Part shown: one piece after another, positions 60,495-63,868 of the stretch
How positions within the stretch are numbered: the first letter of the stretch is position 1
Layout: each line of letters opens with the position of its first letter
Assembly (NCBI GenBank): GCA_015060975.1
Contig: SUXI01000007.1
Coordinates: forward strand, 62,001-126,000
From: Bacteroidales bacterium
GTDB taxonomy: Bacteria; Bacteroidota; Bacteroidia; Bacteroidales; Muribaculaceae
Length of the DNA: 64,000 bases
Reading direction: 5' to 3'
Position numbers and translations under genes: made by a program
Notes under the pieces: generated by a model
Told to the model about the DNA's origin: nothing
Seen by the model: the letters and a program-made list of their open reading frames with translations, nothing else
The model's database searches: none

Positions 60495-61445
60495 TTATTT
60501 CAAAAGTTTGAAGAATTCAATTATAGGAGAAGAAAAAATCAATTTTTCTCGAGGTCGTCGATTTATTTTAGCTTGAATAGCATCAAACTGACTCTGCTCA
60601 ATTAGTCTAAAATCGGTTCCTTTAGGGAAGTATTGTCGGAAAAGTTTGTTTGCGTTTTCAACGGCACCTTTTTGTCCGGAGCAGAAAGGATCAGCAAAAT
60701 ACACTGTAGCACCAATGTGTTTGGTTAGCCACTGATGATTCATGAACTCGCTGCCATTATCAGTAGTTATTGTAAGGACGTTAGCTTTATATGGCAACAA
60801 TAATCTCCAAGCGGCTTTAGCAACTACGTCAGGCTTTTTAGAAGTTAGTTTAGTTTGCAAAAACATATTTGTTTTGCGTTCTATCATAGTTAACACTGCG
60901 CTTTTCAGACCTTTTCCGATTACCAAATCCATTTCCCAATCCCCGAAACGGGTTCCATCAGCCTCAACCGGACGTTGGTGAATGGATATGCGATTGGGGA
61001 TAAGAGTTCGTCCCGATGATTTGCGTTTATGCCATTTATGTCTGCGGTATTTCATCTTGTGACGGCAATGCTTCTTAAGCAGTCCTGTTTCATCAGCACG
61101 TATTTCTCGGTAAATGCGTTCATGGCTTATGTTTATCCCCTCGCGCTTAAGATAACCTGATATTTGCTTGGGTGACCAATCTTCTTCAATAAGCAAATTT
61201 AAAGCCCTTTTCAGTATGTGATTTGGCGTCTTTCGGTTGGAACTACTTCGTTCTCTACGAACTATGGTAAGTTCAACGGCATTTTGGAACAAGTATCGTC
61301 CATGACGATTACTATTACGCCTAACCTCTCTACTGACTGTTGAAACAGAACAATTAATCTGCCGAGCAATAGCAGTATATGTCTTTTTTTCTTGTAGTCC
61401 CAGGTAAATTGCGTACCTTTGCTCTCGGGATAATTGTTTATACAT
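60495..61445 (-). CDS. IS30-family transposase
   Basis: HTH region YTAIARQINCSVSTVSREVRRN, DDE-type catalytic core (FGDWEMDLVIG, TTDNGSEF, PFCSGQKGAVENANKLFRQYFPKGT); ATG at 61445 preferred over TTG at 61451. Confidence 0.95.
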   Translation of the reverse strand: MYKQLSREQRYAIYLGLQEKKTYTAIARQINCSVSTVSREVRRNSNRHGRYLFQNAVELTIVRRERSSSNRKTPNHILKRALNLLIEEDWSPKQISGYLKREGINISHERIYREIRADETGLLKKHCRHKMKYRRHKWHKRKSSGRTLIPNRISIHQRPVEADGTRFGDWEMDLVIGKGLKSAVLTMIERKTNMFLQTKLTSKKPDVVAKAAWRLLLPYKANVLTITTDNGSEFMNHQWLTKHIGATVYFADPFCSGQKGAVENANKLFRQYFPKGTDFRLIEQSQFDAIQAKINRRPREKLIFSSPIIEFFKLLK

Positions 61446-61471
61446 AAGCAATACAAATTTAATTATTCCAT

Positions 61472-61670: not shown

Positions 61671-62426
61671 TTATGTATTTATGTTTATATTGTCGCAAAA
61701 TTCCTTTTCGGCTATTGCGATTGATTCAATTTTGCCAATATCGTGCCATTTATAATCTTCTGTTGGCGTATATCCCATTATTTTCAAGTCATTACATTTG
61801 TCAATATAAAATGGTGTAATTGAAAATTTTGGCTCGTTGCTATAACTTTTCAGCTCATTGAATATTGCTGGAGAAACGATGTGAACTCCACCAAAAGCGC
61901 GCAATTTATCGGTATCATTTGCGATATAATTTGCCGGTTTTACTTCTCCGGTTGAGATATTTGTCCACCCGCGAAGTCTATTTGTGTCATCTATGTAGAA
62001 GTATCGAGCAGTTTTGCGGTCGGCTACAAGTAGGGTTGCATCGGCATCATTTTCGATATGTTGTTTTACCATTTTGTGTAAATCAAAATCGGTAAGAATG
62101 TCAGCGTTGTGAATTATAATTGGCTCATTGCCGTCAAGCCATTCTTTGGTTTTTAATATCCCCCCTCCTGTATCAAGCAATAAATCTCGTTCATCGCTTA
62201 TGTGTATATTAATTCCAAAGTTGTTGTTTTCTTTTAAAAAATCGATAATTTTTTCACCAAAATGATGAATATTTATAACGATTTCATCTATCCCATGACC
62301 TTTTAGTCGATTTATAACACGTTCAAGCATCACTACGCCACCCACTTTAACAAGAGCTTTTGGTCGGTCATTTGTCAACGGGCGCAGGCGAGTGCCTAAT
62401 CCGGCTGCAAAAATCATCGCTTTCAT
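61671..62426 (-). CDS. Nucleotidyltransferase family protein (MurU-like sugar-1-phosphate nucleotidyltransferase)
   Basis: MKAMIFAAGLGTRLRPLTNDRPKALVKVGG, IHNADILTDFDL; directly follows the kinase gene. Confidence 0.88.
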   Translation of the reverse strand: MKAMIFAAGLGTRLRPLTNDRPKALVKVGGVVMLERVINRLKGHGIDEIVINIHHFGEKIIDFLKENNNFGINIHISDERDLLLDTGGGILKTKEWLDGNEPIIIHNADILTDFDLHKMVKQHIENDADATLLVADRKTARYFYIDDTNRLRGWTNISTGEVKPANYIANDTDKLRAFGGVHIVSPAIFNELKSYSNEPKFSITPFYIDKCNDLKIMGYTPTEDYKWHDIGKIESIAIAEKEFCDNININT

Positions 62427-62437
62427 AGATGGGAGTA

Positions 62438-63868
62438 TTATAACTTGGCGTTGAATGTTTGCTCTATGTTTTGTTCGCGATGCACCAACTCAACTTTCAC
62501 ATTGAATTTTTTGTTGATATGTTCAGCCATGTGTTGTGCACTATATACCGAGCGATGTTGTCCGCCGGTGCAACCAAAACATACCATAAGATTGGTAAAT
62601 CCACGTTCAATATAACGTTTGACGGTGGAGTCAACAAGCTCGTATGCGTGTTCAAGGAAAGTTATAATTTCGCCATCATCTTCAAGGAATTGAATAACTT
62701 GTTGGTCAAGCCCGGTAAAAGGTTTATAGCGTTCATATTTTCCGGGATTATTTACCGCGCGACAATCAAATACATACCCACCGCCATTTCCCGAAGTGTC
62801 ATTAGGAATACCTTTTTTATATGCAAAACTCATAACTTTAACTGTTAGAGTGTGTTTTTGCAAATCATCGCTGAATTGTTTCATTTCAACCAATTCTTTA
62901 AGTATTTTGCTCAAATAGGGGTATTCGGGATATGGCTCTTGCAGTAGTGTGCGAAGGTTGGCTACAGCGTATGGCACACTTTGCATAAAATGTGGTTTTT
63001 TCTCGAAATAACCACGGAAACCGTATGCTCCTAAGACTTGAAGAGTTCGGAATAATACAAAATGGCGCAATTGTTCATAAAAATATGTTTCATCTACAGG
63101 CATATATTTACGAAGTGCGTCAATGTATTCATTGATGAGTTCGTTACGAAGACTGTCGGGCATATTCGCTTTTGCCTGCCATAGGAATGACGCTACATCA
63201 TAGTAGAACGGACCTTTGCGACCTCCTTGAAAATCAATGAACCATGGCTCATTGTCAACAAGCATCACGTTGCGTGATTGGAAGTCACGGTACATGAATG
63301 TGCTTGATTGGCTACGCATTAATACTTCACTCATCGCTTGAAAATCATCTTCAAGAAGATCTTCTTGAAACTCCAATCCCGTAGCTTTAAGGAAGCAATA
63401 TTTAAAGTAATTGAGATCCCACATGATTGTGCGGGTGTCAAACTCGGCAAGAGGATAGCATTTGCTGAAATCAAGACCTACAGCACCGGCAAATTGTATG
63501 TCGGGTAGCATCCTGATAGTTTTAATCAACAACTCTTTTTCCTCATTACTGAATGAGCGGGTTAAACGACCTTTCTCAATTGCTTTGAATAACATTTCAT
63601 CTCCAAGATCCTCTTGGATATATGCCGAATGATCATCTGATACCGCAAGCACTTTAGGTACAGGCAATTCTTTCTCTTTGAAATGGTCGGCAAGATAAAT
63701 AAATGCTTCGTTTTCTTCCCGGCAAGTGCCTAAAACGCCAATGATAGATGTTTTGCCCAAAAGTCTGAAATACCGGCGATTGGAGCCCGATGCCGGAAGT
63801 TCGATTATTTCAGTGGATTCGCTACCCACTACTTGTTTATATAATTGTGCTAATATTGTAGTTTTCAT
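62438..63868 (-). CDS. Aminoglycoside phosphotransferase/AmgK-like kinase fused to RapZ C-terminal domain
   Basis: N-terminal APH-like kinase (YIQEDLGDEMLF, FMYRDFQSRNVML, WFIDFQGGRKGPFYYDVASFL) and C-terminal GCTGGQHRSVYSAQHMAEHI RapZ motif; TATCTTTG promoter at 63890-63897. Confidence 0.88.
   Translation of the reverse strand: MKTTILAQLYKQVVGSESTEIIELPASGSNRRYFRLLGKTSIIGVLGTCREENEAFIYLADHFKEKELPVPKVLAVSDDHSAYIQEDLGDEMLFKAIEKGRLTRSFSNEEKELLIKTIRMLPDIQFAGAVGLDFSKCYPLAEFDTRTIMWDLNYFKYCFLKATGLEFQEDLLEDDFQAMSEVLMRSQSSTFMYRDFQSRNVMLVDNEPWFIDFQGGRKGPFYYDVASFLWQAKANMPDSLRNELINEYIDALRKYMPVDETYFYEQLRHFVLFRTLQVLGAYGFRGYFEKKPHFMQSVPYAVANLRTLLQEPYPEYPYLSKILKELVEMKQFSDDLQKHTLTVKVMSFAYKKGIPNDTSGNGGGYVFDCRAVNNPGKYERYKPFTGLDQQVIQFLEDDGEIITFLEHAYELVDSTVKRYIERGFTNLMVCFGCTGGQHRSVYSAQHMAEHINKKFNVKVELVHREQNIEQTFNAKL

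Follow-up and report, generated by a model that had tools for sequence, protein, structure and literature searches.

An AmgK-like kinase with a RapZ C-terminal domain and its MurU-like neighbour as a likely MurNAc salvage arm in Bacteroidales

The fusion gene and the MurU-like gene

The window, i.e., the whole stretch of 64,000 nucleotides that was analysed, carries near its end a 476-aa open reading frame (positions 62438-63868, minus strand) that joins an AmgK-like anomeric sugar kinase to a RapZ C-terminal domain. The kinase domain is of the APH fold and occupies residues 1-330 (62879-63868, minus strand), PF01636 matching residues 23-255 with 50.6 bits against a cut-off of 23.2. It contains the catalytic loop RDFQSRN (residues 194-200; 63269-63289, minus strand) and the metal-binding motif DFQGG (residues 212-216; 63221-63235, minus strand), which recur as RDFxxRN and D[FY]QxG in 24 of 24 homologues. 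The RapZ C-terminal domain follows at residues 341-466 (62471-62848, minus strand), where PF22740 scores 119.5 bits (cut-off 27); it is the only copy of this domain that a profile search finds in the host genome. A sequence search of the PDB with the fusion retrieves both E. coli RapZ (3e-15) and the AmgK-like protein 3CSV (2e-12), the latter being the nearest solved structure to the kinase. The AF2 models have a mean pLDDT of 90.4 for the whole fusion and 94.0 for the RapZ domain alone, and Foldseek aligns the RapZ-domain model with the E. coli RapZ-CTD structure 5o5s (TMt 0.92, rmsd 1.8 Å) and the kinase part of the full model with 3CSV (5.4e-13). Both fold assignments of the first-pass annotation, an APH/AmgK-like kinase and a RapZ-type C-terminal part, are therefore borne out by profile, sequence and structure searches. 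The P-loop N-terminal kinase-fold domain of RapZ itself is missing from the fusion, where the APH domain stands in its place, and the NCBIfam model PRK05416 aligns only at positions 149-277 of 278 (109 bits, against a cut-off of 244).

On the same minus strand, 11 nt downstream of the fusion gene, lies the gene for a MurU-like sugar-1-phosphate nucleotidyltransferase of 251 aa (61671-62426), matched by PF00483 (NTP_transferase) with 92 bits. The first-pass annotation had reported such a transferase twelve nucleotides downstream on the same strand; its identity, strand and close downstream position hold, and only the measured gap is different. Two MurU models are the top-scoring NCBIfam families for this protein, which remains under their equivalog cut-offs (134.1 and 121.8 bits versus 250 and 370). 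In the same way, AmgK is the best NCBIfam match of the kinase, despite scores of 71.1 and 46.7 bits for the fusion against equivalog cut-offs of 550 and 500. Because both proteins score far under the AmgK and MurU cut-offs, their specificity may differ from that of the reference enzymes, and the kinase is labelled AmgK-like only. An IS30-like transposase gene (HTH_38, rve; 60495-61451, minus strand) is found directly downstream of the MurU-like gene, before rpsP.

Conserved features of the RapZ domain

RapZ is an sRNA adapter in E. coli. The domain of the fusion shares with it the C-terminal fold and the CTGGxHRSV loop, present here as the anion-binding loop GCTGGQHRSV (residues 432-441; 62546-62575, minus strand), which has the CX5R(S) form and is equivalent to C247-R253 of E. 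coli RapZ. The cysteine, histidine and arginine of this loop are invariant in all 139 distinct copies, and a CX5R(S/T) loop is present in 33 of 33 aligned RapZ domains; in the AF2 model, the loop links a strand to a helix. Alignment with E. coli RapZ indicates that, of the phosphate pocket formed by H190, T248, G249, H252 and R253 together with C247, all residues are kept except H190. The equivalents of Lys170 and Arg184 are largely kept as well, while Lys251 is not conserved and the basic C-terminal RNA-binding tail is missing. The fusion also differs from E. coli RapZ in carrying a glycine-rich insertion, which includes the NGGG loop (residues 361-364; 62777-62788, minus strand) and whose [NH]GGG core is found in 134 of the 139 Bacteroidota copies.

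Distribution and gene arrangement

Of 197 Bacteroidales genomes, 164 contain PF22740, almost always within fusion-length open reading frames, the fusion being missing from about 30 of the 197; across a phylum-wide sample the domain is present in 48 of 396 genomes. A contig scan found the fusion in Bacteroides timonensis and in Mediterranea, Parabacteroides, Phocaeicola, Prevotella, Paludibacter and Tannerella species. The MurU-like gene lies directly downstream of the fusion in most of 80 Bacteroidales loci, around which no other conserved neighbour genes were found: the fusion and MurU alone recur. They form a conserved unit, and the fusion is near-universal in Bacteroidales rather than peculiar to the host genome. 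Three loci (L031, L032 and L033) carry a lone RapZ domain with no kinase or MurU nearby, followed in L031 and L033 by an MFS transporter.

In another family of the class, AmgK, RapZ-C and MurU are encoded by individual genes that follow one another in the same order (loci L035-L042, L041 likewise), and in one Bacteroidales MAG (L112:7986-10271) the kinase, the RapZ domain and MurU are encoded in a single 761-aa open reading frame with no internal stop. That the order kinase-RapZ-MurU is kept whether the parts are split or fused is strong evidence that the three act together. Two loci (L078 and L099) show a wider linkage, SpoIID-AmpG-NamZ-x-fusion-MurU, which is partial in L094. AnmK was considered as a further partner of the cassette and rejected, since it is present in 31 of the 48 fusion- or domain-bearing genomes versus 272 of 396 overall and does not track the cassette.

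MurNAc supply in the host and its relatives

In Pseudomonas, AmgK and MurU, together with AnmK and MupP, constitute the anabolic MurNAc recycling route. The present pair resembles this system in combining an APH-fold kinase with a small nucleotidyltransferase whose best models are AmgK and MurU; it differs in its scores, far under the equivalog cut-offs, in the RapZ C-terminal domain carried by the kinase, and in the lack of AnmK in the host. Indeed, whole-genome HMM searches of the host, a draft genome of 2.45 Mb that is 92% complete, detected no murA, murB or anmK, and for glmS they returned weak partial matches alone, one of them inside MurQ. The host does have murC over the cut-off and other ligase homologues, which implies that its peptidoglycan precursors are assembled from UDP-MurNAc on.

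A separate contig of the host (C2) carries a salvage locus (L128:9051-18724) with genes for MurQ (over its cut-off), MurK (1.8e-92 to the T. forsythia MurNAc kinase 8ow9), a NagX-like membrane protein, NamZ (267 bits), an AmpG-family transporter and SpoIID, as well as a DUF4922 gene and, in its middle, a large glycolate-oxidase-like gene. This locus resembles the MurNAc operon of T. forsythia; the NagX-like protein occupies the position expected for MurT, a label that it would bear by position only. T. forsythia lacks murA, murB, glmS and glmU (PMC5790795), and its AmgK and MurU, when produced in E. coli, permit labelling with a MurNAc probe (PMC13041923). The likeness to its MurNAc salvage system (MurT-MurK-MurQ, AmgK and MurU) thus extends from the MurK, MurQ, NamZ and AmpG homologues of the host to the shared absence of murA, murB and glmS. 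A RapZ domain is not mentioned for the T. forsythia AmgK in its cited literature, yet the fusion is present in three Tannerella sp. MAGs (L070, L072 and L095).

Loss of the de novo genes is not confined to the host. In HMM searches of relatives, which are MAGs of undisclosed completeness, 7 of 18 further genomes lack both murA and murB, making eight with the host, and all seven keep the fusion and MurU adjacent. These genomes (those of loci L047, L048, L049, L050, L052, L053 and L054) are candidate MurNAc auxotrophs. murA is missing from only 5 of 197 Bacteroidales; since most fusion carriers have it, the fusion is unnecessary for de novo supply there. An association test between murA loss and the fusion was uninformative because 83% of genomes carry the fusion anyway. 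In the fusion tree, the genomes that lack murA and murB are spread over more than one clade: four changes are required under parsimony, a count that could be inflated by gaps in the MAGs, and well-supported branches force two. Repeated loss, some missing data, or a combination of the two would account for this scatter. In some relatives murA and murB are neighbours, so that a single gap or deletion could remove both; a search by synteny for the empty site found, in the stretches examined, none of the genes that directly flank murA and murB in relatives. In one relative (G420, L161:9652-17101), murB lies near AmpG, SpoIID and DUF4922 on a contig that also carries that genome's fusion.

Absence of glmS is wider, being seen in 14 of the 19 fusion-bearing genomes tested (the host and 13 others), several of which keep murA and murB. 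Parabacteroides chinchillae (L058) and the three Tannerella MAGs have both genes and no full-length glmS match. GlmS regulation consequently cannot be the general role of the RapZ domain in Bacteroidales, and the link to GlmS control drawn by the first-pass annotation is not supported; the RNA tail and His190 are missing as well.

Function of the pair and of the RapZ domain

Altogether, the loss of murA and murB, the MurNAc locus of the host and the linkage to NamZ and AmpG lead us to read the pair as an anabolic MurNAc salvage arm. In the host, the pair looks like the sole way to obtain UDP-MurNAc and is probably essential. The split and triple-fusion forms point the same way, and the AmgK/MurU-type salvage put forward at the outset is thereby strengthened. 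That the two genes constitute a UDP-sugar salvage module is highly probable, and MurNAc can be taken with good confidence as the main substrate; the whole explanation, in which the pair yields UDP-MurNAc and the RapZ domain tunes the kinase, seems likely, with slightly more reserve.

In this model, the kinase domain would phosphorylate MurNAc, and possibly GlcNAc too, at C1, and the MurU-like enzyme would then presumably convert the sugar-1-phosphate and UTP to UDP-MurNAc, bypassing MurA and MurB. The NamZ/AmpG-type salvage locus of the host would supply the MurNAc, and MurK and MurQ would compete for it by phosphorylating it at position 6 and directing it into catabolism. The conserved anion loop of the RapZ domain is the probable binding site of an amino-sugar 6-phosphate, which would tune the kinase at the MurNAc branch point: such a gate would sense the sugar 6-phosphate arising from the competing MurK branch or from catabolism and adjust the 1-kinase. 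In E. coli, the RapZ-CTD is sufficient to bind GlcN6P, with a KD of 10 nM (PMC7073468). The gating function, which the first-pass annotation had suggested for an amino-sugar metabolite, is proposed tentatively, at somewhat less than an even chance, and is slightly favoured over the idea that the domain is itself an enzyme.

According to that alternative, which we regard as rather unlikely, the RapZ domain is a Cys-dependent sugar-6-phosphatase that converts MurNAc-6P to MurNAc and feeds the kinase, as MupP does in Pseudomonas. The step would match the one that precedes AmgK there, although MupP is a HAD-type MurNAc-6P phosphatase of unrelated fold. The GCTGGxHRS loop shares its CX5R(S) form with the P-loops of Cys-phosphatases, has a strand-loop-helix setting in the model and is invariant in all 139 copies; in enzyme-style operons, kinase and transferase always flank the domain. 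For E. coli RapZ, a sulfate at the anion loop and the inactivity of C247S led the authors to propose a catalytic -SH (PMC5737377, PMC9841335), the ligand in the crystal with GlcN6P is probably a transformed product (PMC9841335), and phosphatase activity has been reported for YvcJ (PMC7525490). However, a Foldseek search with the RapZ-domain model returned RapZ alone at a meaningful score and no Cys-phosphatase structure, and the host genome lacks AnmK, from which MurNAc-6P usually comes. MurK is present, so that a phosphatase would create a futile cycle, and since the C247 variants of E. coli RapZ fail to bind RNA, their inactivity can be explained without catalysis. Shuffling of the domain yields the CX5R(S) motif in 1.2% of cases, a figure that was weighed both for and against a phosphatase. 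Bolder still, and held with less confidence, is the notion that RapZ C-terminal domains are at root Cys-dependent amino-sugar-6-phosphate phosphatases, the Bacteroidota fusion performing a MupP-like step and RNA regulation in E. coli being a later use of that site. If this were true, one polypeptide would withdraw MurNAc-6-phosphate from catabolism and pass it to the anabolic branch.

Two further readings are improbable. One concerns the substrate: the module could activate GlcNAc, giving UDP-GlcNAc, or another amino sugar instead of MurNAc, and so offset the missing glmS. The frequent absence of glmS, including from genomes that keep murA and murB, agrees with this, as does the NCBIfam description of AmgK as a MurNAc/GlcNAc kinase; yet eight genomes have lost murA along with murB, and in these UDP-GlcNAc alone would not give UDP-MurNAc, and the gene linkage is to the MurNAc-releasing NamZ. 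The other would reduce the RapZ domain to a mere dimerisation or scaffold element joining kinase and transferase, consistent with the dimerisation of the E. coli RapZ-CTD (PMC5737377) and with the natural triple fusion in L112, but a fully invariant anion loop exceeds what a scaffold needs. Finally, it is very doubtful that the domain regulates amino-sugar genes post-transcriptionally by binding RNA as in E. coli, for although the fold is shared and the Lys170 and Arg184 equivalents are largely kept, the basic tail is missing, His190 and Lys251 are not conserved, and the host genome has no glmS to serve as a target.

Significance for Bacteroidales

The salvage pathway and both domain families are already known. 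A literature search, with subscription papers outside its reach, found no paper that deals with both RapZ and AmgK, and we did not find described either the fusion as the standard salvage kinase of Bacteroidales or its likely essentiality in lineages that lack murA and murB. A near-universal Bacteroidales RapZ domain that has no RNA tail and is tied to a sugar-1-kinase offers a simple system in which to test the chemistry of the domain. Gene content also predicts that MurNAc auxotrophy, known in T. forsythia, extends to further uncultured Bacteroidales, in which the pair would be essential and for which a MurNAc supplement is suggested in culturing attempts.
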